DNA from: Streptomyces noursei ATCC 11455
Lineage (GTDB): Bacteria; Actinomycetota; Actinomycetes; Streptomycetales; Streptomycetaceae
DNA: 64,000 nt
Direction of reading: 5' to 3'
NCBI RefSeq assembly: GCF_001704275.1
Contig: NZ_CP011533.1
Coordinates: 3,410,001-3,474,000, forward strand
This document shows positions 9,563 to 36,196 of this stretch, in pieces. How positions within the stretch are numbered: position 1 is the stretch's first letter; every line of letters starts with the position of its first letter. Both the position numbers and the translations under genes were made by a program. The notes under the pieces are model-generated. The model was not told where the DNA came from. It saw only the letters and a list, made by a program, of their open reading frames with translations, and ran no database searches.

Positions 9563-10654
9563 TCAGTGTCTCAAGCACTCCCTGCCATCCACTGCAACGG
9601 CAGCCAGGCGATGTCCCCCTTCAGTACTCGCCAAGGTCGCTCCGTAGTCCGGGTCGTACAAGCGCAGCATGGAGACGAAGCTGTCGAGCAGGTCGAGTTG
9701 TTCGGGCCTGAGTGATGGCGCGTTGAAGTGCATGACCGTGTTGCGTACGTCCTTCACCCGGCTGAGCATCCCGACGAAATAGGCCCTGTCGACGAGAGGC
9801 CAGCCGAGCTTGCCCCAGCGTTCCTCGTTGTTCAGGAGGCGGATGTACTCACCGAACATCATCTCGTCGACGGACCGCTTGTTCTTGTGCACCTTCTGGA
9901 TGTCGTCTTCGTCGTAAACACGGCCCAGGCAGCGTCGCAGTCGCCGCTCGATCTCGCCCAGTGTGAAGAAGGGGCGGGCGACCGTGCCGAACTCGCCGGC
10001 AAGGTCAGCGGAGGTGACGATGCCGCTCACCCGCCCGTCGGCGGCCCGGACGAGGACGAATTCGTGTGCGCGGATTACCGGCAGCACCGGCAGCAGGTGG
10101 GCCGAGGCGTTGACGATCTCGTACTCGCTGCTGATGGCGCTGGTCAGGCATGTCTTACGCCCGGTCGCGTGCATGTGGGCGATCGATGCCCACGTGACGA
10201 CACCATGCAAGATCCCTGACGCATCGATCGCGGGAAGCTGCGAGTATCCGTGCTCCACCATTCTGCCCATTGCGACGGGCAGGAGCTCATCAGGTGTAAT
10301 CGATGTGACCCTGTGAGCGCACGGCAGGTCGTGCACCCGCATCGCCGTCTGCGGGAACATGCCGACGGCGTCTTCAGAGTCGTCGGCCAGGTGCGGATCG
10401 GTACCGCTGTCCTCTTCGTAGCTGCCGGCGCCCGCGTCGTGCTCGTGGTCGATCCGGACGACCGTGACATCGTCGTTCAGTGAGCCGACCGCGAAGTCCG
10501 GCACCGTGGCCAGACCGGCGTTCGTCAGGTCGAGCCGGATCTGCGGAACGGACGCGTGGTCACGGACCCGGAAGCCCCAGAGGGACACCAGGCCCCGGAT
10601 CGACAGGGTGGTGCCTTCCAGCCCCTTGACCGTGGCGTCATCCGGCGTGGCCAT
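9563..10654 (-). CDS. CBS-pair protein with C-terminal HEPN-like RNase domain
   Basis: A 363-residue protein of three parts. A poorly recognised N-terminal region (1-110) contains an Asp/Glu-rich linker. A tandem CBS region (about 120-245) carries the repeats HGYSQLPAIDASGILHGVVTW and a second copy ending RVSGIVTSADLAGEF. A C-terminal helical domain (about 255-345) contains R304-N-T-V-M-H309, which fits the R-x4-H motif of HEPN ribonucleases. CBS pairs usually bind adenine nucleotides, so a ligand-gated RNase effector is a reasonable inference; no RNase activity is proven. The start ATG 10654 follows GAGGGAG and overlaps the end of the DUF262 gene by 17 nt, showing translational coupling. Confidence 0.72.
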   Translation of the reverse strand: MATPDDATVKGLEGTTLSIRGLVSLWGFRVRDHASVPQIRLDLTNAGLATVPDFAVGSLNDDVTVVRIDHEHDAGAGSYEEDSGTDPHLADDSEDAVGMFPQTAMRVHDLPCAHRVTSITPDELLPVAMGRMVEHGYSQLPAIDASGILHGVVTWASIAHMHATGRKTCLTSAISSEYEIVNASAHLLPVLPVIRAHEFVLVRAADGRVSGIVTSADLAGEFGTVARPFFTLGEIERRLRRCLGRVYDEDDIQKVHKNKRSVDEMMFGEYIRLLNNEERWGKLGWPLVDRAYFVGMLSRVKDVRNTVMHFNAPSLRPEQLDLLDSFVSMLRLYDPDYGATLASTEGGHRLAAVAVDGRECLRH

Positions 10655-12485
10655 CGGTCGCTCCCTCTCGCACCGCGCTCTTGCCCATTTCCCGTTCCAC
10701 GAGTTCCAGGAGCCTTGCCGTCCGGTCCCGGTAGAACGCCTCAAAGTCGTCCGCGCGCAGTGTCTTGGCGTCGATGAGGTGCGTGCCGACGATGTCGTCG
10801 AACCAGTCGCCCGGACTGCCGGTGTGACGTTCGAAAGAGGGCAGGTAGACGGAAGGAGCACTGGTCCCCATGGTCTGCAGCGCCCGGTAGGACAGCGGGG
10901 TTTTGTTGACGATGCTGTTCATCAAGGAGCTGTCGACGCCGTTGTGTTCGAACCAGGTCTTGGGGAAGACCTGACGGATGTCCACGTACTGTCCGATCAG
11001 TGTCTGCTCGCTGATCGGCTCTCCGTGGAAGAACCAGTCGATCGCCCCCTCCTTGAGGAGGAGAGCGTGGATTCCCTTGTACGCCGCGCTGTTGCGCGTG
11101 GTGAGCCTGTGCAGGCGCTGTTCCTGGAAGGTCGCTTCCGTGATGGTGTCGGGCTCCGGACCGCCGTCCCTGATCCAGCCGACCACCTGCTCGACGTCGC
11201 GTACGAACCGGGTGTCCGTGACTCCTCCGTAGAGCTCGCCGAGCACACCGCACCAGTACCAGCGCGCGAGCTTCTCGTGGACGCCCCGGTCTTCCACCGC
11301 CTCCCCGAGAAGGACACCGATCGCAGCGAGGGGTACCACCTGGGACCCGTACGGCAGGTCGCGTTCGCGGAAGACGTGCTGTGTGGCGAGGAAGCGGCCG
11401 ACCCAGGACAGCGCTTTAGCCGCCTTCGGCGCGATGCGCGTGTAGTCGGCGAGCGGCAGGTGCAGCAGATCGCGGCGCTTGCAGCTCACCGCCGGCGCGT
11501 TGGTCGCCCCGGAATGCTCCGCCAGGAACTCCTGTTTGCGCTGGTACGTACGCACCAGCGCGATGGTCTGGAGGAAGTCCAGGCTCGTGAGTCCGGTCTC
11601 CTGACCGCCTTCCTTGTCCAGTGTCCCGAACACCTGGTGGTCCGAGCACAGCTTGCCCTTGATGGCCTGCCAGTCTTTGATGAGGCTGAAGTCCTCGCCT
11701 CCGTTGCGCTCCGCGTACTGCGTGTCACCGGCGTAGGTCGCCGTGAGCAGCTCGAAGACGTTGAGGACGACGCCGCCGGTGTTTACCCGCTCGAACACCG
11801 AGCACACCGCTTCCTTACGGGTTTCCTTCGGCAGCCGGATCAACGGCACCTTGAACCCTTTGACGGTGTCGATGACCTGGGCCTGGAACGCCGACCACAT
11901 GTCCCAGCGGTCGTCGCCGCCGCTGACGTAGGCCCGTTGCCACTTACCTGTCCGATCCGGCTCGAAGATCAGGTTCAAGGGGAACAGGCCGCTCGCGCAC
12001 TCCTTGTCCCGCGTGCCGAGGTCCCAGGTCGTGCGGCCGTAGACGCCACGCACGACTCGATCTTCCGGAACGGACACGATCGCGTCGTCCCGGTCCGCCG
12101 TGTCGTCCACCGCCTTGGCGATGTCGATGTAGTACCAGCGCTTGAGCGGCTTGTTGCGTGCGCCCGTCGTCTCCACCGGCCGGTCCGACCGGAGCGCCTG
12201 GAACAAGGACGTCAGGCGCTGTTGACCGTCGAGCAGCAGTTGTTCCGGGACGACCTGCGGTCCCACCTCGGTGCCGTGCAGGGGCCGGGCCTTGAACTGA
12301 GCTTCGCCACCGGTGTCCAGCGTCATGGCGACGCCCAGCGGATAGTCGAGGGTCACCGTCGCCAGCAGAGCACGGATCCGGTCATCGTCCCACTTCCACT
12401 GCCGCTGGAAGTCAGGAAGCTGGATCCTTCCGGCCGCAACATCTTCCAGCATCTTGCCCAGGCTGGGCCCGTCTAACGCCACCAC
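10638..12485 (-). CDS. DUF262 (GmrSD-type) protein with degenerate HNH
   Basis: A 615-residue protein of the DUF262/DUF1524 superfamily, whose member GmrSD cuts glucosylated phage DNA. N-terminal motifs are QLPDFQRQW (22-30) and LLLDGQQRLTS (83-93), the ParB-like DGQQR signature; FERVNTGG follows later. The C-terminal region resembles the HNH domain, including VNKTPLSYRALQTMG and SAPSVYL. However, the metal-binding His segment normally written HHIFPK reads DIRQVFPK at 502-509, so the nuclease site looks inactivated. It is the first gene of a two-gene minus-strand unit with the CBS-HEPN protein and diverges from the RAMA operon. Start is GTG 12485. The nuclease-dead reading needs alignment. 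Confidence 0.85.
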   Translation of the reverse strand: MVALDGPSLGKMLEDVAAGRIQLPDFQRQWKWDDDRIRALLATVTLDYPLGVAMTLDTGGEAQFKARPLHGTEVGPQVVPEQLLLDGQQRLTSLFQALRSDRPVETTGARNKPLKRWYYIDIAKAVDDTADRDDAIVSVPEDRVVRGVYGRTTWDLGTRDKECASGLFPLNLIFEPDRTGKWQRAYVSGGDDRWDMWSAFQAQVIDTVKGFKVPLIRLPKETRKEAVCSVFERVNTGGVVLNVFELLTATYAGDTQYAERNGGEDFSLIKDWQAIKGKLCSDHQVFGTLDKEGGQETGLTSLDFLQTIALVRTYQRKQEFLAEHSGATNAPAVSCKRRDLLHLPLADYTRIAPKAAKALSWVGRFLATQHVFRERDLPYGSQVVPLAAIGVLLGEAVEDRGVHEKLARWYWCGVLGELYGGVTDTRFVRDVEQVVGWIRDGGPEPDTITEATFQEQRLHRLTTRNSAAYKGIHALLLKEGAIDWFFHGEPISEQTLIGQYVDIRQVFPKTWFEHNGVDSSLMNSIVNKTPLSYRALQTMGTSAPSVYLPSFERHTGSPGDWFDDIVGTHLIDAKTLRADDFEAFYRDRTARLLELVEREMGKSAVREGATDGHAG

Positions 12486-12639: not shown

Positions 12640-13062
12640 GTGCCCAAGCGTTCCATTGAGATCGACGACGAGGTGTTCGCGTACCTGCAGAGTCGGAGCG
12701 AGCCCCTGGTGGACACACCCAACGACGTGCTGCGGCGCCTGCTCCTCGGAAGCGCCGGCCGACTGCCGGCCGTCACGGCGGAGCGCCGGCCGGGAGATTT
12801 GATGCCCTTCATCAAGGCGGGAGTGCTCAAGGCCGGGGACAAGCTGATCCACGTCCAGCCGCGTCGCGGGCTGACACATGAGGCCACGGTGACGGCGGAC
12901 GGCTGGCTCGAAATCGAGGACGGCCGCGCATTCTCCAAGCCGTCGCCCGCGCTCAAGGCGCAGACCGGAGTCGACATCAACGGCTATGGCAAATACGTCC
13001 TCAAGGAAGACCCCGGGGTTCGTCTCCAGGACCTCCGCGAGCAGCTGCGAGGCGGGGCCTGA
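12640..13062 (+). CDS. SeqA-like N-terminus + RAMA modified-DNA reader
   Basis: A 140-residue protein. Residues 1-37 (KRSIEIDDEVFAYLQ ... DVLRRLLLG) closely follow the dimerising helical N-terminus of SeqA, the enterobacterial hemimethylated-GATC binder. Residues 53-138 match the RAMA domain (restriction-system adenine-methylase-associated), with GVLKAGDKLIH, THEATVTADGWLEIEDG and a final Gly/aromatic VDINGYGKYV segment. RAMA domains are predicted to read modified bases in restriction and anti-phage loci. Start GTG 12640 has GGGGGA about 7 nt upstream; an earlier GTG/ATG start lacks that. It overlaps the EVE-like gene by one base. A multimeric reader of methylated DNA is the likely role. Confidence 0.78.
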   Translation: MPKRSIEIDDEVFAYLQSRSEPLVDTPNDVLRRLLLGSAGRLPAVTAERRPGDLMPFIKAGVLKAGDKLIHVQPRRGLTHEATVTADGWLEIEDGRAFSKPSPALKAQTGVDINGYGKYVLKEDPGVRLQDLREQLRGGA

Positions 13063-13538
13063 TGGCGACGCAACTAATCATCATCGGCAACCGAGAGCCC
13101 CTGGCCTGGGTGCTGGAGAACCAGCGGATGGCCTTCCCCGCTCGGCGCACCACCGGACTCCCGGAGAAGGGCGACGAGATCCTCATCTACACGACCCGGG
13201 GCTGCTACCGGAACCCGGGACGCGACCGGGGACGGATCATGGGCCTGGCGACCGTCACCTCCGAGGTCTCAGTGCTCGCGGATCCCGTCTCGTTCGGCGA
13301 CCGGGACTTCACCTCCGGATGCACCCTCCAGGTGCACGGACTCGCCCCGCGCCACGAGGGGGTGATCCTCGCGGACCTCGTACCGCAGCTTCAGGTCTTC
13401 CCGAAGCCCGACAGCTGGAGTGCCACCTTGCGCCGCGCGTCGCTCAGACTGCCGGAACCGGACGCCGATCTACTGCGCCGGGAACTTCAGCCGATGCTCC
13501 GGCCCCGCGGGTCGATTCTCGGCCAGTACGCGCTCTGA
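13062..13538 (+). CDS. EVE/PUA-like domain protein
   Basis: A 158-residue protein with features of the EVE/ASCH-like PUA fold. It begins with strand QLIIIGNREPLAWVLENQ, then GDEILIYTTRGCYRNPGRDRG (about 38-58), then a barrel strand RIMGLATVTSEV. EVE domains bind modified bases in DNA and often accompany nucleases and NTPases in defence loci. It is translationally coupled to the reader before it (TGATG overlap). The fold call rests on pattern only; no residue for base capture can be named with confidence. Confidence 0.65.
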   Translation: MATQLIIIGNREPLAWVLENQRMAFPARRTTGLPEKGDEILIYTTRGCYRNPGRDRGRIMGLATVTSEVSVLADPVSFGDRDFTSGCTLQVHGLAPRHEGVILADLVPQLQVFPKPDSWSATLRRASLRLPEPDADLLRRELQPMLRPRGSILGQYAL

Positions 13539-13722: not shown

Positions 13723-15066
13723 ATGTACGAGCTGAACGAGGAGAAGGACCCGGCGGTGCTGGGGCCGTTCCAACTGCTCGCCGTGCTCGGACAGGGCGGG
13801 ATGGGCCGTACATACCTCGGGCGCAGGCTCCCGCTGGAGAACCTGGGTCCCGAGCTGGAGACGGGATACCACCTGACGGAGTTCAGGGAGTCGGCTCAGC
13901 CGGCCCTGGCAGCGGTGAAGGTGATCAAGCCGTCGAAGCTGCGGGACAGCTCCGAGCACTCCGAGGAGGAGGCCAGGGCACGGTTCGCGCAGGAGATCGA
14001 GACGATGCGTACGGTGGCCAGCGCTCGGGTTCCGGCGCTGCTCGCCGCCGACGCCGACGCCGAACAGCCCTGGCTGGCCATGGACTATGTCCACGGCTCG
14101 ACTCTCCACAAGCTCGTCCATGCCTGTGGTCCGCTGCCCGTGGGCCCGTACGGGGCGCTCGGCCTCGCCCTGGTGGACGCTCTGCGCGCCATCCACGGCG
14201 CCAAACTGCTGCACCGGGACCTCAAGCCGAGCAACATCGCTCTCGGTCCCGACGGCCCCGTCGTACTCGACTTCGGTCTCGCCGTACTCACCGAGCGGGA
14301 CAGCGACGCGGCTCTCACCAAGACGGGCGACGGCTTCGGCACCCCGTCCTACATGTCTCTGGAGCAGGCGACCGACACCAAGCACGTCACGGAGTCCGCA
14401 GACATCTACTCGCTGGGGGCGGTGCTGTTCTTCGCGGCCGCCAAGCGCCCGCCGTACCCCCTCGCTCCCCTGCTCACCGCACCGAAGTGGGACGGTGTCC
14501 ACGCACCGTACCTGCCGCTGCTGGGCCGGATTCTGGTGCAGGTGGAGGCACAGCGGCCTTCTCTCGACGAGATCGAGAGCGACCTTCGCCAGCTGCTCGC
14601 CGGCCACGGACTGACGGAGGAAGCCGCCGCGGACCAGCTGCGGGCTCTCGTGACCGGGTCCGGGCTGATCCCCGAGCTCCCCACGAAAGCCCTCTCTGAC
14701 CTGGCGGACCCCGAGATCCAGCAGGCGGCCCAGCAGGCCGTCAACCAGGGGGCCGCACCGGACAGTCCGTGGGCGCCCGACCTGTTCGACGAGTTCCTGG
14801 AGGCCGAGGCGCAGGACCTGGAGCCCCTGGATGTGGAGGCCGAGCCCGCGCCCGGCCCCGCCACATATGTGCCGACCGTGGTGGACCCGGCCCCGCGACC
14901 CGCGCTGCCCGCTGTCACGCCGGTCCCCGCGCAGCCGACGGTGACCAGCTACCGCCTCGCACCACCGCAGCCCCCCGCGACGCCCGAGTCGGCCGTGGTG
15001 CCGCCTGTCGCCCTGCGCGCTGCCGAGCGGTTGCGGAAGGCGTACGCCCATAGTGGGCGTCTCTGA
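13723..15066 (+). CDS. Soluble Hanks-type Ser/Thr protein kinase
   Basis: Kinase domain over residues about 13-285. The Gly loop is G23-Q-G-G-M-G28, the catalytic Lys K66 in AAVKVIKP, the catalytic loop H164-R-D-L-K-P-S-N171, and DFG at 183-185. The usual APE is replaced by SLE in the segment GTPSYMSLEQA. An insertion of about 30 residues separates the Gly loop from the lysine. The C-terminal 150 residues are acidic then Pro-rich, with no membrane segment or PASTA repeats, unlike PknB. The start ATG 13723 follows GGGGG at suitable spacing. It is separated from the EVE gene by 184 bp and from the SNF2 gene by 183 bp. The context suggests signalling within the defence island, as with PglW in BREX-2. 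Confidence 0.88.
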   Translation: MYELNEEKDPAVLGPFQLLAVLGQGGMGRTYLGRRLPLENLGPELETGYHLTEFRESAQPALAAVKVIKPSKLRDSSEHSEEEARARFAQEIETMRTVASARVPALLAADADAEQPWLAMDYVHGSTLHKLVHACGPLPVGPYGALGLALVDALRAIHGAKLLHRDLKPSNIALGPDGPVVLDFGLAVLTERDSDAALTKTGDGFGTPSYMSLEQATDTKHVTESADIYSLGAVLFFAAAKRPPYPLAPLLTAPKWDGVHAPYLPLLGRILVQVEAQRPSLDEIESDLRQLLAGHGLTEEAAADQLRALVTGSGLIPELPTKALSDLADPEIQQAAQQAVNQGAAPDSPWAPDLFDEFLEAEAQDLEPLDVEAEPAPGPATYVPTVVDPAPRPALPAVTPVPAQPTVTSYRLAPPQPPATPESAVVPPVALRAAERLRKAYAHSGRL

Positions 15067-15249: not shown

Positions 15250-18200
15250 ATGCCCGACGCAGCGTCCGACCTCCCCTCGGGCCCGCCCCCGGCGGGCACG
15301 GTGATCGAGGTACGGGACGAGGAGTGGCTGGTCCACAACAACCCTCGCGAGGTGCGCCCCGGCGAGTTTCTGATCGAGGCGATCGGCGCCTCCGAGCTGG
15401 TCCGCGGGCACCGGGCACGCTTCCTGACCTCACTCGACGGTATGCCCCGCGTTCTGCGCCCCGAGGACACCCGACTCGTCCACGACACATCCGAGGGATA
15501 CCGTCTCAGCCGGCTCTTCCTGGAGGCGGTGCTGCGCAAGACCCCGCTTCCCCAGATCGAGCGCCGTCTCGCGCTCACTGAGGGCTTTCTGCTCGATCGC
15601 ATGGACTACCAGCTGCGGCCGGCCGAGAAGGCCCTGGCGAATCCGCTGCGGCCGCGCCTGCTGATCGGTGACGTCGTCGGCCTCGGCAAGACCCTGGAGA
15701 TCGGGATCCTGCTCGGTGAGCTGATCCGCCGGGGACGCGGCGAGCGCATTCTCGTGGTCACCCCGGCGCCGGTGTTGGAGCAGTTCCAGCACGAGATGTG
15801 GACCCGCTTCTCCCTGCCCCTCGTCCGCCTGGACAGTGTCGGCATCTCCCGGATCGAGCGGAAGATCCCGGTCGGCCGGAACCCGTTCACCTACTACAAG
15901 CGCGTCATCATCTCGATGGACACCCTGAAGAACGCCAAGCGCTACGGTGCCTGGCTCCAGGACATCGAATGGGACGCCGTCGTGATCGACGAGTCCCACA
16001 ACCTGATCAACCGCGGCAGCGACCGCCGCATCCTGGCTGAGCTGCTCGCGAAGCAGACCGATGCCCTGATCCTCGCGAGCGCCACCCCGCACAACGGTGT
16101 GATGCGGGACTTCACCGGCCTGGTCCGGCTCTTGGACCCGATGGCCGTCAAGGACGAGCAGAACCCGAAGGCGTCCGAGTTGCACCACCTCATGCTGCGC
16201 CGTACCAAGGTGAGCAAGGAGGTGGCCAAGGCGCTGGAAGGCGCGTGGGCGCCTCGTGGCGAGTCGAAGCCGATCCCGTGTGCGGCAGGCGAGCTGGAGG
16301 AGCGCGTTTTCGCCGAGCTGACCGAGAACTGGCTGAGGAATCCGGATCCCCGCGGGGCCGATCACCTCTTCCCGTACGTGCTGCTGAAGTCCTTCCTGTC
16401 CTCACACCGCGCGCTGTTCGTGACGGCCCGCAAGAAGCTGGCCAGCCTGGGCCATGCCCTGCCGGAAGGGCACAAGAACGTCACCGATCCGCCGCTGACC
16501 GGTGCGGAGGCGCACTCGGGGGTGCCGGAGGTCGCCTCGCTGCTCCGGCTCACGGAGCTGGCGCGCGAGGTCGAGCAGGCGTCGGTGTCAGGAGCCGCGG
16601 CCACGGCCAAGCTCGCTGCCCTCGTCAGCTATCTCCGCCAGATCAAGGTCGGACCGGGCAGCCTGACCCGCGCGGTCGTGTTCTCCGAGCGCCGCGAGAC
16701 CCTCAACTGGCTCGGCGCGGTACTTCCCGCGCTGTTGGGCTGGAAGAAGCCCAAGGACGGTGAGGCCGCCGTCAAGGTGATGCACAGCGAGGTCTCCGAC
16801 ACCGTCCAGATGGACTACGTGGACGAGTTCGCGCGGGCCGGCAGCGACGTACGGCTGCTGCTCACCGGCGACGGCGCCTCCGAGGGCGTCAACCTGCACC
16901 GGCAGTGCCACCACCTCGTGCACTGGGATCTGCCGTGGAGCCTGATCCGGGTCGAGCAGCGCAACGGCCGCATCGACCGGTACGGACAGCGCGAGAACCC
17001 CGAATTCCGGGCGCTGATCCTGCGGAGCGAGGTCGAGGGCGCCCTGGACGACCGGACCGTCGCGGAAAAGGTCCTCGCCCGCGAGGCGCGGGTCCACGAG
17101 GTGCTGGGTGCGGTGGAGGCCGCCACGAAGGAGGACGACTGGGGCAAGGAGGAGCGCCGGGTGATGGAGGCGCTGCTCCGCGACGCCCCGCCCGAGGAGG
17201 CGGTCGCCGACCTCCAGGCCGTCGATGTGGAGGCGCTGACCGAAGGCAGTGGCCTATCCGCCGAGTTCCCCGTCGCGCGCCGGACAATGAGCGAGTTCGG
17301 CACCGGTCCGGCCCCGGCGGAGGCGGAGGCCGACGCCTCCGGATCCGACGCGGGCTTCAACGCGGACTTCGATTTCGACCTGGACATAGACCTGGATGAC
17401 TACGGATCCAACGCTCCGGAAGAGACACAACCGGCGCAGGACAGCCCCGCCTCGACCACTAAGGATTCCGACATCCCGACGGTCGACGAGCTGCGCCTGT
17501 TCGATCCTGCCCCGGAGCGGAACCGCCTCCTGTACGTACGCACCGGCCTGGACGAGCTGGCCAAACTGGAGTCGTTCCGCCTCAACACCGCCTTCACCGG
17601 CACCGACCTCAGCTTCGACACTCCCGAGGACCTGGCCGACCGGCTCGACGTGCTGCCGCCCGGCTATCTGCGCGATCAGAACATCGCCCGCCGGATGAAA
17701 CTGACCTTCAGCCGCGAGGATGCGTCCGATTCCCTCAAGAGGGCTCGCGAGGACTCGAATTCGTCCTCGCTCTGGCCGGACGCCCACTACGTCGGCGAAC
17801 TCCACCCGGTGGTCGAGTGGATCACCGACAAGGTGCTCGTCCAGCTCGGCCGTCAGCAGGCCCAGGTCCTCCAGGTCGATGCCCGGGTCGCGCCCACGCC
17901 CGTGGTCCTCACCCAGGGCGTGTGGTCCAACGCCGAGGGGCGGCCGACCTTGGTCGCCTGGCTCGCGATCGACCGCCTCGACGAGCCGGAGCCTCGGGTC
18001 CGGAAACTCACCCCGGAACTGCTCGCCGAACTCGGCATCGGCCCTGACATGCCCGACCATTACGCCCCGGGCTCACTGGAGGACCTCCAACCGCTGGTCC
18101 CCAAGGCCGTGGCCGAGACCCGGCGGACGCTCGACGGTCTGCGGGAGATCGCCGACAGGGAGGTCGACGCTCCGCTGCGCGTGTACGAGAAGCAGGTCGG

Positions 18201-24757: not shown

Positions 24758-25022
24758 GGTGTCCTCCAGGGTGGGCCTCGGTATCCAGCGGGGCGTGGAC
24801 GCATCAGCTCTTCGCAGAGCTCCGGGGCTCGTGAGCCTGTCGACGGTCAAACAATTCGCCACGATCTGCATGATCAGCGTCACGTAATTCCCCACCCTCG
24901 CGGTCACGATTCCCCACCGGGACGCTGACGCGGCTGGTGCTGCTGACCGGGCTGCAACTTGCGCGATTTCTCCACCGACCGCTTCCAGCCTGCGGGGCTG
25001 AGGCAACGGATTTGCCCCCATG

Positions 25023-25433: not shown

Positions 25434-25467
25434 GCGGCCGACCCTAGAAGCTCAAGCGCAGTTGAGG

Positions 25468-26452: not shown

Positions 26453-26591
26453 GCAGACCGTCCCTGCCCCCTCCCACCAGCCTCTTTCGGCCGAATCCGG
26501 CACCGCTGTCAGACCCCGCACGTAGAGTGGTCGCGATCGTGAGTGAAGCGATAAGTGAAGTGCAGGACCTACGGGAGGGCCGGCGGGGGCT

Positions 26592-29500
26592 ATGAAACCC
26601 ACACTCGCCGCGCAGGCATTGCGCGATACGACGGTCGAGTATCTGACCACCACGTTCGCGCTGGCCGAGCCCGCTACCCAGGCCGCGCTCACCGACTTCC
26701 TCACCGACCCGGCCGACGGGCTGTTCCGTGGCCCTTACCTCCGCATCCGGCGGCCCTTCCGGGCTGCCGAGGACGGCTGGCAGCAGCATCTCGACTGGTG
26801 GAAGAGCGGTTTCTGGCCGTACGCGCATCAGGCCGAGGCCTTTACGCGGCTGACCACCAAGGGCGGGCACGCCCCCCAGCCGACCCTCGTCACCACCGGT
26901 ACCGGCTCCGGTAAGACCGAGTCCTTCCTCGTCCCGGTCATCGACCACTGCCGACGTGCGAAGGCGGCCGGCAAGCACGGAGTCAAGGCCGTGCTCCTCT
27001 ACCCGATGAACGCGCTCGCCGGGGACCAGGCCGACCGTATCGGCAAGCTGCTCGACGACGAGCGGCTGCAGGACGTGACCGCCGGGCTCTACATTGGTGA
27101 GGCGAGCTCCACCAAGAACGGCTCCCCGTATGGGCGGGTCGCGGTGGACCGGGCCGAGATCCGGCGGAATCCGCCGGACATCCTCATCACCAACTACAAG
27201 ATGCTGGACCTGCTGCTCCAGCGGCAGCAGGACGCCCCACTGTGGGTGGACGCGGATCTCGCGTACATCGTGATTGACGAGTTCCACACCTATGACGGCG
27301 CGCAGGGCACCGATGTCGCCATGCTGCTGCGCCGCCTCGGGGCGGTCGTCGGAGCCGCTGAGGAGGGCCGTCCGCTCGGCTCGATCTGCCCCGTCGCCAC
27401 CTCGGCGACGCTGGGCGAGTCGCCCGTGCGCGACCGGCAGGACCAGGGTGGCGGGACCGGGCCTCGCGCCATGCTGGATGTGGCCTCCCAGGTGTTCGGG
27501 GTGCGGTTCCCCGACGACGCGGTTGTCGGGGAGGACCGGCGAGAGCTGAACTCCTTCCTCCGCCCCGTCGACCTCACGCTGCCGCTGCCCGCGCCCGCCG
27601 ACCTCGTCGCCCTGCCTGATCCGACCGCTGCCGCCGACGGCGGCGGGCTGGACGCCCTGTCCCGGGCCGTGCTCGGCTGCGACACTTCCGACGCCCGAGA
27701 GATGGGCCGTCGGCTCCTCGCGCACACGCTCACCCACGATCTGCTGACCGCCGATGTGGATCAGCCGCTCACCGCCGAGGAGATCCTGGCCGCCTTCCCC
27801 GCGAGCTCCTCCTGGCGGGTGGCCGCGGTACAGGACCCGCAGGACGCTGCCGAGGCCCTGGCCCGGTTCATCGCGCTGATCTCGGTGGCCCGGGACCCGG
27901 GCGCGCCCGCCGGCCAGGAACGGCCGCTCCTGCTCGTCGAGACGCACCTATGGGTGCGCTCGCTCTCCCGCGTCCTGCGGTTCGTCTCACCGCGGCCGGT
28001 GTTCTCCTGGACGGACGCCGATCAGGCCGCCACTGCCGCCGTCGCGTCCGTCGAGCAGGAGGAGCGGCGGCGGGCCGCAGCCCGCACCGGGCGACTGCCC
28101 TCGGCGTACTGCCGGCACTGCGGGCGCTCGGGCTGGAGCGCCATCAGCCCCGAGCGGAACCCGAGCTCCCTGGTGACCGCGCCGGATGACATCTACCGGC
28201 TCAGCGCGAGCGGCGGCGCCGGCAAGGCGCGGGTACGAGCCATGATCGCGGCCACTCCCGCGGAGGCGGCCAAGCAGGCGCGGCAGGCGCTGGACCACGG
28301 CATGCGGCGCGGGCGGCGGGCTGCGACCCGCGAGGCGACCGTGCTGGTGCTGGAGGACAGTGGCGAGGCGCTGCGCCGGATCGACCCGGACGAGGTGTTC
28401 CACGCCGACGGGTCGATCGCCGAGGCCCCGGAGAACGGGGTGTTCGTCAAGACGTGGTTCGACAACGCCGACCGGGACGAGTACGCGAAGCAGGACCGCT
28501 GCCCGGCTTGCGGGCAGGCGCAGGGCATCCGCTTCCTGGGTGCCGGTGTCGCGCCGCTTGCGTCGGTGGCCGTCACGCAGCTGTTCACCGGTGGGGAGTT
28601 GCCGAAGGAGGACGCCGACGGGAACGACCGGCGCAAGACCCTGATCTTCAACGACTCCGTGCAGGACGCGGCGCACCGGGCCGGGTTCGTTGCCTCGCGG
28701 GCCTGGAAGTTCTCGCTGCGGGCGCTTGTGCACCAGCAGTTGGCGGAGCGCTCGGCGGAGGAGCCCGACTACGGCGCGGACGGCGTGCCGCTCAATGAGC
28801 TGATCGCCTCGCTGGTGAAGCGGGCGTCGGTGGACAAGGAGAAACTGCTCTCCTCCGTCGTGCCACCGGACCTCCACGATGTGGAGGGGGTGAAGCGACT
28901 GCTGGCCGGCAAGAAGCGCCTGCCCAAGGGGACTTGGGACCTGGTCGGGGAGCGGCTGGCGTTCAACACCCTGCTGGAATTCGGGCTGAACTCGCGCTTG
29001 GGCCGGACCCTGGAGCTCACCCGCACGGTGGCGGCGGAGGTGTTCCTGCCGGACCCCGAGCGCGCGGCCCGGGTCGCAGAGGCGCTGTACGAGGAGCACC
29101 TGCGGCGGCAGTTGCCGGTGGATCCGGAGGACGCACAGGAGGATGAGGAAAGCCAGGAAGGCAAGGGCGGCGCGGAGGGCGCCGAAGGCGTGGCGCGGCG
29201 CGCCCTGCCCGCGTCCGGACCCGAACGGCTGCGCCGCTTCGAAGGGTTCGTACGGGGTTTGCTGGAGCACGTACGAACCAGCGGCGGCATCCGGCACACC
29301 TGGCTGGACGGGTTCATAGAGGCCGAGGGGCGCAACCGCTACACGATCTGGACCGGGCGGCCCGAGGGTATGCAGGCCTTCGGGCGGAACTCCGACGCGC
29401 CGGCCTTCGTCCTGGTCGGGGCGCGCTCGGGGCGGACAGACTTCGAGCGGGTCGATACCAAGGAGAGCTGGTACACCGACTTCGCCGCGCGCTGCCTGGA

Positions 29501-32500
29501 CATGGACCGGTCCCTGGCGGCCGGTTACCTCGCGGAGCTGCTGCCGCGGCTGGCGGACGGCGAGGTGGGCGCGCTCGCCTATCGCCGTACGGGCGAGAAC
29601 AACGCCGGCGGCAACAACAGGGGGCACGGCGTGTACGGGCTCACTCCCGGGCACATCCGGGTGCGGCCGCTGAGCGACGAGCAGACGGCAGGGGCGGCGC
29701 TGGCCTGCCCGGAGTGCGGCTGGACGCAGACCGTGCCGCCAGAGCGGGTGGCGGTGTGGCAGGGGCTGGCCTGTCCGCTCAAGGGGTGCACGGGGCAGCT
29801 GGCGGTGCCTTCCGCGCAGGCTCCCGGACGGGCCGGGCGGGACTTCCGGGCCGACTACTACCGGCGGTTGTACCGGGAGGCCGACCCGTACAGCGTGGTC
29901 GCCGCCGAGCACACCGGTGTGCTGAGCCGCAAGGCCCGCGAGGAGATCGAGAAGGGCTTCCGGCAGGGCGTCCGGCACACCGACCCGAATGTGCTCTCCT
30001 GTACGCCCACCCTGGAACTAGGTATCGACATCGGCCAGTTGGAAGCGGTGATCCTCGCGTCGCTGCCGCCGAGCACCGCCGGGTACGTGCAGCGGGTCGG
30101 CCGGGCCGGCCGGTCGACGGGCAACGCGCTGATGGTGTCGCTGGCCGACACCAGTCCGCGTGCCCTGTACCACCTGTCCGAGCCGCGCCACCTGATCGCC
30201 GGCCGGATCCTGCCTCCGGGCTGTTTCCTGTCCGCGGGCGAGCTGCTGCGCCGGCAGTACGTGGCGCATCTGATCGACCTGGCTGCCCGGGGCCGGCTGG
30301 AGGGCGTGACGCCGCTGCCCGACCGGGTGACGGCGCTGTTCGGCCGGGTCGGCTGGCTGCGGCGGTTCGAGCAGGCGGTGACCGGCCGGATGGAGCTGGT
30401 CGAGGAGTTCCTGAGGCTCTTCCCCGAGATCGAAGGCGTGCCGGACTCGGGGGCCTCCCGGGATGCCCGTACGGCGCTGCGCCGCTTCGCCGCCGGCAAG
30501 CTGGCCAAGGACCTGAGGGATGCAGAGGACGCCTGGGAGGCTGAGCGGGCCGAGCTCGTGGACCGCCGGGCCGCGATCAACATCGCGGCGGAGGCGCTCC
30601 ACGAGAACGTGGACGACGAGGCCCGGGAGAAGCGGAACCTCGACCGTGAGGCGGCCGCGGTCGCCAAGCGGCTACAGGAGTTCGCGCAGGCAGGGGCACA
30701 GGCGTTCCTGGTCGAGCGGGGTCTGCTGCCGAACTACAGCCTGGTGGAGGACGGTGTCCGGCTGGAGGCCGCGCTGACCCGCAAGGAGCCGGCCCGGCGC
30801 GACCGCGGCGGATCCGGACCGGTGGCGGGGTCAGGGTCGGATGAGGCGCCGAAGTCGCAGTGGCGTACCGAGATCCGCCCGTATGACCGGCCATGGGAGT
30901 CGGCTCTCACCGAGCTGGCGCCCGGGAACTCGTACTACGTGCTCGGCTATCGCCACAAGATCGACGGATTCGATCTGGGGCCGCGCCCCAAGAAGGGCGA
31001 GGAGGGCGCGCGTTCGGCCGTGGTCGCCTGGCGGGTCTGCCGGGAGTGCGGGTACGTCCGTACCGAGAACGCCGAAGCAGACACGTCGGCATGCCCGCGC
31101 TGTGCGGGGCCCGGGATCGGCGGGCGGGCCGCGCTGCACCATGTGATCGTGCCGCGCAAGGTCACGTCCCGGGACAAGCGGGATGACGCGCGGATCATCG
31201 ACGACCACGACTCGCGCACCCAGCGCCACTACTCCACGGCCACGGCGGTGGACATCGACCCCGCGGCGATCAAGGAGAGTTGGCGGCACTCGGGCACCAC
31301 CTTCGGTGTCGACCACGTGCGTGAGGCGGTCATCCGGCGGTTCAACCTCGGCCCCGCAAAGCTCAGTCGGCGGCCGGACACGTACTTCGCCGGCACCGAG
31401 GTCACCATCACGCCCTTCGTGCTGTGCCCGTTGTGCGGCGGCGCCACGGACCGGGAGCCGGGGCACGTTCCCGTACAGGAAGAGCTGTCCGAATCGCTGG
31501 CCGCCCGGCCGGAGTTGGCCCATCACCGGCCCTGGTGCCCGACCCGGCGCCGGGACCGGTCCACGCAGGCCCAGGACCGCCGGGTGATCACCGCCACCGA
31601 GCACCGCACAGAGGCGTTGCGCATCCTGCTGCCCGCCGCGACCCTGCACGTACCGGAGCGGCTGGCGTCCTTCTCGGCGGCCCTGCACTTGGGGCTGGCG
31701 CTGCGCTACGGCGGGGACCCGGCGCACATCCGGTCGACGCCGAGCACGGAGCCGGACCGCGAGAGCGGGCTGAGCCGCAACTACCTGGTGCTGTACGACT
31801 CGTTGCCCGGCGGGACGGGATACCTCCAGCGGCTCGTGGAGGGCGACGGCGAGGAGTTCCGGACCGTACTGGCGGCGGCGCAGGCGTATCTGCGGGACTG
31901 CCCGTGCGAGGACGGTTCGCGCCGCGCCTGCCACCTGTGCCTCCTCGGGTACGCACCGGAGCGCGACTACCGGCTGCTGGACCGCCGGGAGGCGCTGTGG
32001 ATGCTCGACGACACGCTCGGCGAGGACGGCCGCAGCCGGTGGGCGGTCAAGCCCGTACGCAAGGACCGGGCGGGCCGGGAGGAGGACGAGGCGGAGGACC
32101 GGCGGCGGTTCGCCGAGCAGGCGCAGAGCGACCTGGAACGGCGGTTCATCGACTGCCTCGACCGCTGGCTCGCCGATCCCGCCAACCAGTCCGACGTAGG
32201 GCACGAGGAGACACCGACCGGCCGCCAGGGCAAGCAGATCACGCTGCGCCGACGGGACGGCTCGCCGATCCGCTGGGAGGTCGTGGCACAGAAGCCGCTG
32301 CACGCGCAGGGCACCGTGCCGGATCTGCTGCTGCGGCCGGTCGCGGGCGAGACCACCTCGGACGGCGCGCCGCCGATGCCGGTGGCGGTCTATCTGGACG
32401 GCTACCGCTGGCACGCCTCGGCGCAGACGAACCGCATCGCCGGAGACGCTGCCAAGCGGGCCCGGCTACGTGCCGACGGCACCCTAGTCTGGCAGATCAC

Positions 32501-33782
32501 CTGGGACGACGTCATGGCCTGGGAGAAGGAGTTGCGGGCCCGGGCCGGGCGGGGCGCCGCGGCGGACGGGGACGAGGCCGCGCGGGTGCTCGCGCCGGCG
32601 CTCGCCGGGCCGTCGGCGCAGGCCGCCTGGCCGCCGTACCCGGTGGAGGGCGAGAAGACGCCGGGTGGCCGGGCCCGGGAGCGATGGGCCCAGCAGCGGC
32701 AGGATCCCGCCGAGATGGACCGGCTGTTCGCGGGCGCCATCCCGGCACTGCTCGGCTTCCTGGCCGACCCGGACCTGCGGCGCTGGCACGCTCTGGCCCG
32801 GCTGTGTGTGATGGGTCTGCTGCCTCTGGCGAGGCGGGAGGAGGTGGTCAACGCTGCCCCGAAGGCGGCCGTGCCGTGGATCGAGGCGGCGCTGCGCGGC
32901 GACGAGCGTCCCCCGGTCAGCGGTGAGGGGCTGAAGCTCTACCCGGTGGCCGATGCCTCGGGGCTGCCCCTGGTACTGATCGGCGATCCGCGGGTGAAGC
33001 CGCAGGGGCTGAGTGCACTGGCCGTGCTGGACGACCGCGCCGAGGCCGTCGCCGGTGACAGCGCCGCGCACCGGCGGCGCTGGAAGGCGTGGCTGTGCTG
33101 GGGGAACGTACTCCAGTTCCTGGATCCGACCGGGGCGGGCCGCGCGGACGGACTCCAGCTCGCCCGCAGCGAACTGGACTCCTTCGATGCGGGGCTGCTG
33201 GCGGCCACGGCCGTCCGGGCAGACGGGCTGTTGACGGCGCTGCGCGCGGAGCTGGCCGGCACCGGACTGGTGGTGGCGGAACCGGAACCGGAGCCGCCGT
33301 ACGCGGAGCGCGAAGCCGCGCCGACGCCTGCTGCCCGGACCGAGCCCGGGGCAGGCAGGGCCCCCGAGCATGTCGCGGCTCTGGAGCGGGCCGCTTGGAA
33401 TCTCGTCCGGCGTCAGCTCTCGTACGTGGGCGACCCGGCCGTCGACGCCCTCGCCCGGGCACTCGCGGAGCGCGGCGATGTGCGGGCCGCCGAGGCGGGC
33501 TGGGACGCCGATGGCATCTCCCGGCCGCTCGAACTGGCCTGGCCCGACCGGAGGATCGCGGTCGTTCTGGCCGAGGACGCGGCGGACGATGCCTATGTGG
33601 CGGAGTGCGCGGCGGCGGGGTGGCACGTCCGGGCGCCGGGTGCATGGGACGAGGAAGAGCTCGCCGCCCTGCTCCGCGACTGGCAGCAGAGCGCTTCCGA
33701 AGGCGTTTCCGGGGGCACCTCCGGGAGAGTTTCCGAGAGGGTTTCCGGAAACGCCCCCGGAGAGGGAGGGGACCGGCGATGA
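26592..33782 (+). CDS. Giant DEAD-box/DUF1998 helicase with nuclease-like C-terminus
   Basis: A 2,396-residue protein. Motif I is GTGSGKT (103-109), motif II DEFH (229-232), SATLG follows, and motif VI QRVGRAGRS begins at 1167. Two Cys clusters (CRHCG near 506, CPACG near 636) interrupt the core, and another pair CHLC near 1779 ends a DUF1998-like zinc region. Beyond that, residues about 1860-1980 look like a Vsr/PD-(D/E)xK nuclease domain: PDLLL (D1911), VYLDGYRWH (D1936, H1941), AKRARLRADG and VWQITWDDV. Large DEAD/DUF1998 proteins are hallmarks of Druantia (DruE) and, split, of DISARM (DrmA/DrmB). Start ATG 26592 follows GGAGGG. It overlaps the next gene by ATGA. Confidence 0.85.
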   Translation: MKPTLAAQALRDTTVEYLTTTFALAEPATQAALTDFLTDPADGLFRGPYLRIRRPFRAAEDGWQQHLDWWKSGFWPYAHQAEAFTRLTTKGGHAPQPTLVTTGTGSGKTESFLVPVIDHCRRAKAAGKHGVKAVLLYPMNALAGDQADRIGKLLDDERLQDVTAGLYIGEASSTKNGSPYGRVAVDRAEIRRNPPDILITNYKMLDLLLQRQQDAPLWVDADLAYIVIDEFHTYDGAQGTDVAMLLRRLGAVVGAAEEGRPLGSICPVATSATLGESPVRDRQDQGGGTGPRAMLDVASQVFGVRFPDDAVVGEDRRELNSFLRPVDLTLPLPAPADLVALPDPTAAADGGGLDALSRAVLGCDTSDAREMGRRLLAHTLTHDLLTADVDQPLTAEEILAAFPASSSWRVAAVQDPQDAAEALARFIALISVARDPGAPAGQERPLLLVETHLWVRSLSRVLRFVSPRPVFSWTDADQAATAAVASVEQEERRRAAARTGRLPSAYCRHCGRSGWSAISPERNPSSLVTAPDDIYRLSASGGAGKARVRAMIAATPAEAAKQARQALDHGMRRGRRAATREATVLVLEDSGEALRRIDPDEVFHADGSIAEAPENGVFVKTWFDNADRDEYAKQDRCPACGQAQGIRFLGAGVAPLASVAVTQLFTGGELPKEDADGNDRRKTLIFNDSVQDAAHRAGFVASRAWKFSLRALVHQQLAERSAEEPDYGADGVPLNELIASLVKRASVDKEKLLSSVVPPDLHDVEGVKRLLAGKKRLPKGTWDLVGERLAFNTLLEFGLNSRLGRTLELTRTVAAEVFLPDPERAARVAEALYEEHLRRQLPVDPEDAQEDEESQEGKGGAEGAEGVARRALPASGPERLRRFEGFVRGLLEHVRTSGGIRHTWLDGFIEAEGRNRYTIWTGRPEGMQAFGRNSDAPAFVLVGARSGRTDFERVDTKESWYTDFAARCLDMDRSLAAGYLAELLPRLADGEVGALAYRRTGENNAGGNNRGHGVYGLTPGHIRVRPLSDEQTAGAALACPECGWTQTVPPERVAVWQGLACPLKGCTGQLAVPSAQAPGRAGRDFRADYYRRLYREADPYSVVAAEHTGVLSRKAREEIEKGFRQGVRHTDPNVLSCTPTLELGIDIGQLEAVILASLPPSTAGYVQRVGRAGRSTGNALMVSLADTSPRALYHLSEPRHLIAGRILPPGCFLSAGELLRRQYVAHLIDLAARGRLEGVTPLPDRVTALFGRVGWLRRFEQAVTGRMELVEEFLRLFPEIEGVPDSGASRDARTALRRFAAGKLAKDLRDAEDAWEAERAELVDRRAAINIAAEALHENVDDEAREKRNLDREAAAVAKRLQEFAQAGAQAFLVERGLLPNYSLVEDGVRLEAALTRKEPARRDRGGSGPVAGSGSDEAPKSQWRTEIRPYDRPWESALTELAPGNSYYVLGYRHKIDGFDLGPRPKKGEEGARSAVVAWRVCRECGYVRTENAEADTSACPRCAGPGIGGRAALHHVIVPRKVTSRDKRDDARIIDDHDSRTQRHYSTATAVDIDPAAIKESWRHSGTTFGVDHVREAVIRRFNLGPAKLSRRPDTYFAGTEVTITPFVLCPLCGGATDREPGHVPVQEELSESLAARPELAHHRPWCPTRRRDRSTQAQDRRVITATEHRTEALRILLPAATLHVPERLASFSAALHLGLALRYGGDPAHIRSTPSTEPDRESGLSRNYLVLYDSLPGGTGYLQRLVEGDGEEFRTVLAAAQAYLRDCPCEDGSRRACHLCLLGYAPERDYRLLDRREALWMLDDTLGEDGRSRWAVKPVRKDRAGREEDEAEDRRRFAEQAQSDLERRFIDCLDRWLADPANQSDVGHEETPTGRQGKQITLRRRDGSPIRWEVVAQKPLHAQGTVPDLLLRPVAGETTSDGAPPMPVAVYLDGYRWHASAQTNRIAGDAAKRARLRADGTLVWQITWDDVMAWEKELRARAGRGAAADGDEAARVLAPALAGPSAQAAWPPYPVEGEKTPGGRARERWAQQRQDPAEMDRLFAGAIPALLGFLADPDLRRWHALARLCVMGLLPLARREEVVNAAPKAAVPWIEAALRGDERPPVSGEGLKLYPVADASGLPLVLIGDPRVKPQGLSALAVLDDRAEAVAGDSAAHRRRWKAWLCWGNVLQFLDPTGAGRADGLQLARSELDSFDAGLLAATAVRADGLLTALRAELAGTGLVVAEPEPEPPYAEREAAPTPAARTEPGAGRAPEHVAALERAAWNLVRRQLSYVGDPAVDALARALAERGDVRAAEAGWDADGISRPLELAWPDRRIAVVLAEDAADDAYVAECAAAGWHVRAPGAWDEEELAALLRDWQQSASEGVSGGTSGRVSERVSGNAPGEGGDRR

Positions 33783-36196
33783 GCCACGCGGTCAGGACAC
33801 AGGTCGCCGTCACACCGCAGGCGAACGAGGACATCCGACGGCTGGACGCGGGCACGAAGAACGCCGTGGGCGACTTCGTCCGCCGGCTTCGGGCGGACCG
33901 GTCCAACCGCGCCCTGCGCCTGGCCCCGCTGCGCAAGGCGGGGGGCAACGGACGGCTGTTCCTCGCCACGCTCGACGGCACCCGGATGGGGCTGCTGCTG
34001 GAGACCGAGGAGAACCGCTTCAGTCTGCTGGCCGTACGCGTCGGCCCCACCGCACGGGACGAACTCGCCCGGCTGACCGTGGAGATCAACACGGTCTCGG
34101 GTGGCGTCGAGCTCGTGGACCAGAGCGAGGTCAGCGCCAACGTCGTCGCGATGCCCGCCCGCCCCCAGCCGGGCCACTGCGCCGGGGCAGGGGAATCCCC
34201 GGCGGGCGAGGGGGCGACCACTGCTGTCGAGGCGACCGGTCGGCCGCCTGCGGCGGAGACCGCCCCGGAATCGGGCGGCTCACCCTCCCCTCTGCCCGTT
34301 CCTCTCTTCGCCCGCTTCGAGGACGAGGACCTTATTGGGCTGGGCGTCATCGCGTCCCTGCTGCCGGCCCTGCGGCGGATCACCGACAGCCGACAGTTGG
34401 CGGCCGTGCTCGGCCACAACCTCCCGGGGCTCACCCGTGATGTGCTGCTGGCGCTGCACGACGGCATGAAGCCGGACGACGTGCGCCGGCACATCACCAG
34501 CCAGTGGGAGGCCGAGGACGAGGTCGACCCGCATGACTGGGCCCGGGCGGCACGTCGGCCGGTCTCCCAGGTCAGCACGGAGGACGCGGCCGTCCTGGAC
34601 GCGCTTGGCGACAGTTTCGACGCCTGGCGGCTCTTCCTCCACCCCGAGCAACAGCGGCTTGCCACCATGTCGTTCAAGGGGTCGGCGAAGGTCACCGGAG
34701 GACCCGGCACGGGCAAGACCGTGGTGGCCCTCCACCGTGTGCGGCATCTCGTCGCACAGCTGCCCCCGGGCCAGAACCGTCCCGTGTTGCTGACCACGTA
34801 CAACACCAACCTCGCCGCCGACCTGAAACAGCGCCTGCGCCAGCTCGGTGGCGACGCGCTCCTGCGCCGGGTCGACGTCAGGTCCGTGGACCAGCTAGCC
34901 CGCGAGGTGGTCGAGCAGCACCCGTCCGCTGTGCTGGGCACTCCCCTGCGCGATGAGGAGGCTATGGGCCTTTGGCATACGGTATGTGCCGCGGCGGGCG
35001 TCTTCGACTACGACGCCGACTTCCTCGACTCGGAGTTCAAGCACGTCATCCTCGCCCAGGACTGCGGCACCGCCCGCGCGTACTTCCGCGCCGAGCGCCG
35101 CGGCCGGGGTGTGCTGCAGCGTACCGACCGGAGTCAGGTGTGGGAGCTGGTGGAGGCGTACCGCGCCCATCTGGCTGGGCCACCCCGGCGCACCACGTAC
35201 GCGCTGATCGCCGACGAGGCCGCCCGAATCGAGGAGCGCCGCATGGCCAGGGCGGCCGAACAGGCGCGGTACAAAGAAGAGCACGGCGGAATCGATCTGA
35301 TCCACCGCGAGGCCGGCAGCGGTATGTGGCTGAAGCCCCGCTACCGTCATATCGTGGTGGACGAGGCCCAGGACCTGTCCGCCTCGCACTGGCGGATGCT
35401 ACGCGCGATGGTCGCCCCCGGCCCCGACGACATCTTCTTGGTGGGCGACGCCCATCAGCGCATCTACTCCCATCAGGTGGTGCTGGGCAGGCTCGGCATC
35501 AACGCCCGGGGGCGAGCGTCCCGCCGCCTGACGCTGAACTATCGCACCACACGGGAGATCCTGGGCAGTGCACAGGGCCTGGTGCGCGGCGAGAACTTCG
35601 ACGACCTCGACGACCGGCCGGACACACTGGACGGCTACCGCTCCGTCCTGAGCGGGCTGGCCCCCCAGTACTGGCGGGCACCCGACTGGGAGACGGAGAT
35701 GCGGGCCATCGCCACCCTGCTCAAGGAGCGTCACGAGCGTTACGGCACTCCCTACGCGGCCATGGCCGTCAGCGTGCCGGACAAGGCCGCCGCCAGCCAA
35801 CTCGCTTACGCTCTGGCAGACAAGCCGTTCCAGATCCCGGTGAGTGAGATCGGCCGTGACGGCCCACCCGACATCGACACCGTACGCATTGGCACCCTGC
35901 ACAGGTTCAAGGGACTGGAGTTCCAGCGCGTGTTCCTGGCAGGCGTCAGTGAAGGACTGGTGCCACACCAGCGCATCGAGGGTTTTCGGCTCAGCCAGCC
36001 CGCCCGGTACCGCCAAGAGGAGCAACGGGCGCGTTCCCTGCTGTTCGTCGCAGCCACCAGGGCCCGGGACGAGCTGGTGGTGACGTGGCACGGCAAGGCC
36101 AGCCGCTACCTGCCCGAGCATGCAGACAGAGACGCCGGCCGGGCGACGTCCCTGCTGACGGACGACGGCCCGCCGTCCGGCTCGGCCGCTGCCTGA
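33779..36196 (+). CDS. RelE/ParE-like domain fused to UvrD-type helicase
   Basis: An 805-residue protein. Residues about 8-100 (VAVTPQANEDIRRL ... LRLAPLRKAGGNGRLFLATLDG ... FSLLAVRVGPTARDELARL) read like a RelE/ParE toxin fold. A variable linker (120-190) follows. Then comes a superfamily 1 helicase with GGPGTGKT (307-314), DEAQD (528-532), VGDAHQRIYSH, LTLNYRTTREI, TLHRFKGLEFQRVF and a final VAATRARDELVV. The missing free-standing antitoxin suggests control in cis or binding to the ribosome/RNA. The ATGA overlap with the giant helicase shows tight coupling, so both likely act in one complex. No typical RelE catalytic set can be assigned by eye. Confidence 0.82.
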   Translation: MSHAVRTQVAVTPQANEDIRRLDAGTKNAVGDFVRRLRADRSNRALRLAPLRKAGGNGRLFLATLDGTRMGLLLETEENRFSLLAVRVGPTARDELARLTVEINTVSGGVELVDQSEVSANVVAMPARPQPGHCAGAGESPAGEGATTAVEATGRPPAAETAPESGGSPSPLPVPLFARFEDEDLIGLGVIASLLPALRRITDSRQLAAVLGHNLPGLTRDVLLALHDGMKPDDVRRHITSQWEAEDEVDPHDWARAARRPVSQVSTEDAAVLDALGDSFDAWRLFLHPEQQRLATMSFKGSAKVTGGPGTGKTVVALHRVRHLVAQLPPGQNRPVLLTTYNTNLAADLKQRLRQLGGDALLRRVDVRSVDQLAREVVEQHPSAVLGTPLRDEEAMGLWHTVCAAAGVFDYDADFLDSEFKHVILAQDCGTARAYFRAERRGRGVLQRTDRSQVWELVEAYRAHLAGPPRRTTYALIADEAARIEERRMARAAEQARYKEEHGGIDLIHREAGSGMWLKPRYRHIVVDEAQDLSASHWRMLRAMVAPGPDDIFLVGDAHQRIYSHQVVLGRLGINARGRASRRLTLNYRTTREILGSAQGLVRGENFDDLDDRPDTLDGYRSVLSGLAPQYWRAPDWETEMRAIATLLKERHERYGTPYAAMAVSVPDKAAASQLAYALADKPFQIPVSEIGRDGPPDIDTVRIGTLHRFKGLEFQRVFLAGVSEGLVPHQRIEGFRLSQPARYRQEEQRARSLLFVAATRARDELVVTWHGKASRYLPEHADRDAGRATSLLTDDGPPSGSAAA

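Follow-up and report, generated by a model that had tools for sequence, protein, structure and literature searches.

A probable two-module defence island in Streptomyces noursei: ARMADA Type II with a linked kinase beside a DUF262/CBS-HEPN module

A Ser/Thr kinase accompanies an adenine methyltransferase in the phage-defence loci of the Pgl/BREX-2 and MADS systems, and DUF262-HNH proteins of the GmrSD type constitute type IV restriction. These families bear on a nine-gene island at positions 9563 to 36196 of the stretch of Streptomyces noursei ATCC 11455 DNA analyzed here (64,000 nucleotides, NZ_CP011533.1, positions 3,410,001 to 3,474,000; referred to as the window), whose closest described relatives are ARMADA Type II and DS-11. 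According to the main text of the paper that describes it, ARMADA Type II has the strict gene order ArmA-ArmB-ArmC-ArmD, anti-phage protection by an Escherichia coli example depends on the whole set of four genes, and ArmD begins with a RelE-like part while ArmC ends with a Vsr-type nuclease (Bell et al. 2025, PMC12458937). DS-11, in the available text of the DefensePredictor study, is a one-protein system in which a tyrosine of the CBS pocket and residues of the HEPN domain are needed for defence, an adenine-type ligand being reported as undiscovered (PMC13092281), and CBS-HEPN fusions were already treated as nucleotide sensors in the available part of a 2013 survey of HEPN proteins.

Comparison with these systems indicates that the island is probably composed of two neighbouring modules at a tRNA-Arg hot spot, one being ARMADA Type II together with a kinase and the other a DUF262 protein together with a CBS-HEPN protein, with a mechanism that we infer. 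The gene identities are firm, and the linkage of kinase and ArmA, the alternation of partners beside CBS-HEPN and the frequent vicinity of the modules are shown by the data. While the core is a known system, two features go beyond what was found in print, namely the linkage of the kinase to ARMADA and the coupling of reader domains to CBS-HEPN proteins. An earlier, sequence-only reading of the window had proposed that the nine genes may be a new defence system that senses modified DNA, a combination it could match to none with a name. Their arrangement in two divergent units was confirmed by lists of open reading frames (ORFs) and by domain scans, and the impression of a defence island containing families of modified-base readers was borne out by the domain matches. 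The reported framing was also recovered, with a tRNA-Arg(CCG) gene (9123-9195, plus strand) as the left border and pieces of an IS4/5-family transposase (36337-37343) on the right. The claim of novelty did not survive, however, as the four large genes are ARMADA Type II, at least two separable modules are present and the whole set was found in one other genome only. A greedy choice of genes by third-codon-position G+C content (GC3) took seven of the nine and missed the RAMA and UvrD genes, both of which have domain matches; the UvrD ORF overlaps the helicase ORF.

The ARMADA core

Judged by gene order and protein families, the segment from 15250 to 36196 is ARMADA Type II, a system named in 2025. 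A BrxHII/RapA-like SNF2 helicase (ArmA, 15250-18345), a large adenine methyltransferase with an NPPW motif (ArmB, 18398-23938), a YprA-like giant helicase (ArmC, 26592-33782) and a GajB-like UvrD helicase (ArmD, 33779-36196) follow each other on the plus strand in the order expected of that type. The identical order is found in a plasmid locus (L048), and ArmD was found downstream in 15 of the 18 genus stretches fetched. ArmB, which is PglX/YeeA-like according to the ARMADA paper, contains a methyltransferase domain of the Eco57I/MmeI type, and the domain scan places DEAD, Helicase_C and MZB(DUF1998) within the single ArmC protein. The C-terminal region of ArmC (32112-32552), a putative Vsr-type nuclease, is conserved in plasmid-borne ARMADA of E. 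coli and of cyanobacteria, the match to the E. coli plasmid being of 32% identity (2e-11) with invariant E, D and H, while the N-terminal ∼99 residues of ArmD are RelE-like only according to the ARMADA paper. At E≤1e-60, ArmA is present in 66 of 392 Streptomyces genomes, a lower bound since at most two candidates were scored per genome, and no ArmA relative was found in the viral contigs.

Kinship with DISARM class 1, Druantia or BREX-2 was also considered, and PADLOC models of the first two do match, with DrmD at 245 bits for the SNF2 protein, DrmMI at 187 bits for the methyltransferase and DruE3 at 305 bits for the helicase. Such kinship is nevertheless highly improbable. The best PADLOC model for ArmB is that of a type IIG restriction-methyltransferase (831 bits), and the NCBIfam scores are far below their cut-offs (DrmD 266 versus 610 bits, PglW 51 versus 990 bits). 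Partner genes are missing, since among the genes scanned no DrmB, DrmC, PglY or PglZ appears in the PADLOC matches listed, nor a PLD nuclease, and there is likewise no DruH of Druantia type III among the matches listed for eight scanned proteins. Unlike in DISARM class 1, DUF1998 is located inside ArmC, and the gene order and the UvrD partner fit ARMADA Type II. Hence the DISARM, Druantia and BREX-2 readings were rejected for their missing partner genes and different gene order, and on this point the sequence-only reading was right.

ArmB and ArmC are separated in the window by a 2.65-kb cassette (23939-26591), on which the sequence-only reading was silent. It contains small minus-strand ORFs, one of them weakly DUF6247-like, and a GntR-type helix-turn-helix at 26195-26452 on the plus strand. 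Spacers of ∼1.8-2.9 kb that are partly alike in sequence occur in many window-like loci, which weakens a chance insertion as the source of the cassette; the spacer measures ∼0.5 kb in L002 and about −9 bases (an overlap) in another set of genus loci. In the Haematobacter locus (L052) an extra gene is located between ArmB and ArmC (L052 22909-23757). The window shares with ARMADA Type II its gene order and its helicase and methyltransferase families, and adds to them this cassette, a kinase upstream of ArmA, SeqA_N-RAMA and EVE genes and a DUF262/CBS-HEPN neighbour.

The kinase upstream of ArmA

The protein encoded directly upstream of ArmA on the same strand (13723-15066), for which the name ArmK is proposed, contains a Ser/Thr kinase domain (90 bits). 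Of the 72 ArmA rows in the genus, 69 were fetched, the window's own row and the second half of each of two split hits being omitted, and 67 of these 69 Streptomyces loci have a kinase in the same position and orientation, the two that lack it (L098 and L129) being contig ends. A further set, of 43 named loci retrieved with ArmA patterns, has the kinase in 35, and the carriers include Streptosporangiales, Nocardia, Murinocardiopsis and Kutzneria; some genomes belong to both sets and figure twice in the kinase tree and in the count of tails at other loci given below. As the window genome has 45 PF00069 places, a kinase in that position by chance would be roughly a sub-percent event per locus.

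The linked kinases also resemble each other and have diverged together with ArmA. In a FastTree phylogeny of 98 ARMADA kinases and 29 other kinases of the window genome, from which L030, L108, L109 and L112 (failed HRD pattern) and L097 and L124 (no ORF call) were excluded, 92 of the 98 fall into one clade with a local support of 0.972, and none of the 29 others is inside it. Pairwise identities of ArmA and of the kinase are strongly correlated across 62 loci, with L070 left out (Mantel r=0.955; largest value in 999 permutations, 0.128). HRD[LIVM][KR]..N and DFG-type motifs are found in 64 of the 67 genus kinases, the exceptions being L108 and L109 (HRDLT) and L127 (DFGV). Behind a variable linker, a C-terminal tail of the type A..LR..YA (15022-15048 in the window, plus strand) is kept by 58 of the 67 genus kinases, by 34 of the 36 at other loci and by none of the 29 control kinases, a pattern consistent with a docking peptide. 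Nine genus kinases lack it: L070 and L081 end without a tail, that of L074 differs in one residue, and L122 and L124-L128 have a different conserved tail, RW..I..RR.D[YF]GG. Five of the latter six are outside the main clade, and this second tail group suggests that a kinase was either recruited to ARMADA twice or has strongly diverged.

These data bear on a simpler explanation, in which the locus is a mere defence island at a tRNA hot spot and the kinase is a hitch-hiker beside ARMADA, an anti-phage kinase of the PD-T4-6 type that acts independently. The kinase does match the PADLOC models PD-T4-6 (145 bits) and mad6 (133 bits), the gene content upstream of it is hypervariable, and the same tRNA-Arg is found at several loci, but its fixed position and orientation, its co-divergence with ArmA and its clade-specific tail make this explanation unlikely. 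For the DUF262/CBS-HEPN module, in contrast, the mere-island reading is plausible. The window shares with Pgl/BREX-2 and MADS the pairing of a Ser/Thr kinase with an adenine methyltransferase, but its kinase scores 50.6 bits for PglW, the cut-off being 990, and 75.5 bits for MAD6, the NCBIfam cut-off being 460, and PglY and PglZ are without a match among the genes scanned. The word kinase is missing from the main text of the ARMADA paper (PMC12458937), as are HEPN, DUF262, RAMA and Streptomyces, and literature searches found no description of a kinase-ARMADA link or of a reader/CBS-HEPN link. Where the kinase is missing, its place is taken by other genes, for example one for a WYL-domain protein in Haematobacter (L052 14079-14939) and one for a DUF4839 protein in Pseudoclavibacter (L042 9138-9899).

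The tRNA-Arg(CCG) gene is also found upstream in L004, L016 and L061 (3 of 24 loci scanned) with different intervening genes, and the site is likely an integration hot spot. The last 22 bases of the tRNA gene have no second copy in the window, and an integrated element bounded by attachment (att) repeats was rejected, the only downstream match to the tRNA 3′ end in the window being one of 14 bases at 52796. Among 20 proteins scanned from the hypervariable stretch upstream of the kinase are GmrSD, an N6-methyltransferase, AAA_5+DUF4357 and SbcC/DUF2399 proteins, as well as products of unrelated genes. In L106, L108, L121 and L127, a DUF3323/DUF2399 gene and an SbcC-like gene (∼1440 residues), a pair that is presumably Wadjet-like and was scanned in L106 only, precede the kinase and ARMADA. 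A clustered family of ORFs of ∼530-785 residues is located upstream of the kinase in L094, L099, L100, L122 and L124-L126, and its L094 member, the only one scanned, is an N6-methyltransferase.

The DUF262 and CBS-HEPN module

The divergent pair at 9563-12485, on the minus strand, is a separate module that consists of a CBS-HEPN protein of the DS-11 family (9563-10654), a predicted RNase effector with a CBS regulatory part, and a DUF262 protein (10638-12485), whose gene overlaps that of its partner. The CBS-HEPN protein reaches 279.9 bits for the NCBIfam equivalog DS11_antiphage (NF053863, cut-off 260) and 35.3 bits for CBS, and contains the sequence RNTVMH (9728-9745, minus strand), which we take to be the HEPN motif. 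It therefore shares the core of DS-11, but whereas DS-11 was described as a one-protein system (PMC13092281, available text), the protein is coupled here to a DUF262 gene and elsewhere to a RAMA or an Mrr-associated domain. The DUF262 protein has the GmrSD_N/DUF262 domain (87 bits) and, as in GmrSD, the DGQQR motif. The canonical HNH histidine pair is HH, and the protein differs from GmrSD in that its HNH motif is degenerate (VDIRQVFP), without the histidine pair, and in that it has a HEPN partner instead.

The coupling extends across the genus. CBS-HEPN proteins were found at 68 places in 65 of the 392 Streptomyces genomes (E≤1e-15; at most five candidates were scored per genome, so these counts are lower bounds), and all 68 places, 57 of them newly fetched, were classified with hidden Markov models partly trained on the same loci, which makes the tally a descriptive one. 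A DUF262 gene is adjacent on the same strand at 42 places, 16 proteins have an N-terminal domain of ∼170 residues that is shared with Mrr-type proteins, and 9 have an N-terminal RAMA domain (64-81 bits in Pfam in all six tested). The single place without a partner, L179, is a 113-residue relic, and none of the 68 has two kinds of partner. The DS-11 cut-off was passed by five of seven relatives tested, L217 (258) and L114 (216) being below it. Hence, by domain content, the CBS-HEPN family has three alternative kinds of partner domain, all known from restriction enzymes or modified-DNA readers, and each of them may read modified DNA.

DGxQR is intact in 40 of the 42 DUF262 partners, while the positions of the HNH histidine pair read RQ in 30, RL in 2, RH in 2, HQ in 1 and CQ in 1 of the 36 that matched the pattern, and HH in none; three of the six that the pattern missed show RQ by eye. 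The lost HNH pair fits a sensing role better than a nucleolytic one. A scan against the local Pfam left the third, Mrr-associated domain unmatched, but PF28530 is present in 31 of the 32 homologues of one example, alongside CBS in 29 and Mrr_cat in 2, and the domain matches the N-terminal half of the PADLOC candidate PDC-S02 (173 bits). EVE was considered as the identity of this third reader and rejected, as profile searches gave no support. YTH structures that Foldseek listed for the fused protein were not used, as the model is poor and the rows are without a range.

How the modules relate and may act

Two further candidate readers are encoded between the modules, in the same direction as the kinase and ArmA. 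One is a SeqA_N-RAMA protein (12640-13062), a predicted oligomerising reader of methylated DNA, in which both SeqA_N (24.9 bits) and RAMA (44.4 bits) are above their cut-offs and the SeqA part is also matched by the profile of PDB 1xrx (1.5e-5). The other is an EVE protein of PUA/YTH-like fold (13062-13538), a predicted modified-base reader by its profile match to PDB 1wmm (8e-6), whose AlphaFold model (pLDDT 90.8) has 1wmm as its best Foldseek match (TM 0.74), with the restriction endonuclease VcaM4I and YTH m6A readers as lower matches. RAMA and EVE together precede the kinase again in L002 and L016/L070, and EVE alone does so in L004/L062.

This arrangement, together with the proximity of the two modules, would suit one integrated modification-sensing system in which the RAMA, EVE and DUF262 proteins read, the kinase relays the signal and both ARMADA and the HEPN RNase are effectors. 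Among the 19 genomes that have both CBS-HEPN and ArmA, the modules are within 30 kb of each other in 15, of which 11 have the CBS-HEPN gene upstream of the kinase, some with DUF262, RAMA or EVE genes between, and 4 have it at 18-23 kb, beyond ArmD in the two that were checked. Under a model of uniform positions the chance of this vicinity is 2e-29, but defence genes cluster in any case, and the low figure thus shows vicinity and not function. Co-occurrence is modest (19 genomes versus 10.9 expected, p=0.004, relatedness uncorrected). Moreover, the complete array is limited to the window and one other genome, which is 55% complete (L070, from the genus sample, is the same contig as L016), L061 has DUF262 and CBS-HEPN without RAMA or EVE, 37 of the 42 DUF262-CBS-HEPN places are not near ArmA, and tblastn finds most kinase-ARMADA loci without RAMA or EVE. 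An integrated system is therefore distinctly unlikely. The sequence-only reading had proposed a survey of gene order for repeated co-occurrence in Streptomyces; in that survey the full set is rare, whereas the kinase-ARMADA and reader/CBS-HEPN links are strongly recurrent.

For the preferred reading of two neighbouring modules, the following steps are proposed. ArmB would methylate adenines to mark self, and ArmA, ArmC and ArmD would translocate on and destroy unmarked DNA, as their families and the published E. coli work suggest. The kinase would dock on the complex through its conserved tail and phosphorylate an Arm protein, so arming or disarming ARMADA. In the other module, the DUF262 protein with its decayed HNH motif may sense DNA in an NTP-dependent manner and set free the CBS-regulated HEPN RNase, which would then cut RNA and stop the infection, and the RAMA and EVE proteins beside the kinase may be further readers of modified bases. 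It is possible, and put forward tentatively, that the two modules form a layered unit, in which ArmK switches ARMADA and the reader-CBS-HEPN arm (DUF262, RAMA or Mrr-associated) catches phages whose modified DNA evades ARMADA, cuts RNA and shuts the cell down, the CBS part sensing a nucleotide that is made or consumed by the reader. The available text of a 2026 BREX survey describes, for BREX and related systems, HEPN effectors that serve as a back-up as well as readers of the RAMA and ASCH/PUA kinds, a pattern that supports such layering, although other loci are concerned.

Several observations weigh against the two-module reading and its mechanism. The kinase is missing from eight of the 43 named loci (L013, which is a contig end, L040, which is a short contig, and L037, L038, L041, L042, L043 and L044), from five of the six plasmid loci read (of 41 records found), the Streptomyces one having it, and from all four ArmA loci outside the genus in a 396-genome sample of the phylum, in which two ArmA candidates were scored per genome, and ARMADA can thus do without it. 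The loci that lack it comprise the non-actinobacterial ones read and several from other actinobacteria. Six of the 98 linked kinases (L031, L122 and L125-L128) are outside the main clade, beside two other kinases of the window genome. ArmB may do more than mark self, given that its best model is of type IIG. The sequence-only reading had described ArmC as a DEAD/DUF1998/nuclease-like giant and ArmD as a RelE-UvrD protein; the DEAD, DUF1998 and UvrD parts stood, but the Vsr nuclease was undetected by Pfam, NCBIfam and PDB profile searches and RelE by PADLOC, NCBIfam, PHROGs and PDB profile searches, so the support for both parts comes from the ARMADA paper and from conservation. As for the second module, 53 of the 68 CBS-HEPN places do not lie within 30 kb of ArmA, no profile links the third reader domain to EVE, and the model of the fused protein has a predicted template modelling score (pTM) of only 0.34.

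No regulator of ARMADA was found in the sections consulted of the ARMADA paper, and the kinase that stands upstream of ArmA across the genus is a testable candidate for one. It parallels the pairing of kinase and methyltransferase in Pgl/BREX-2 and MADS, a hint that a phospho-switch may be general among defences that mark self. With nearly every Streptomyces relative found being paired with or fused to one of three candidate reader domains, the question of what triggers DS-11 becomes a concrete experiment, and the coupling of readers to CBS-HEPN proteins predicts a modular class of immunity that reads DNA and cuts RNA.

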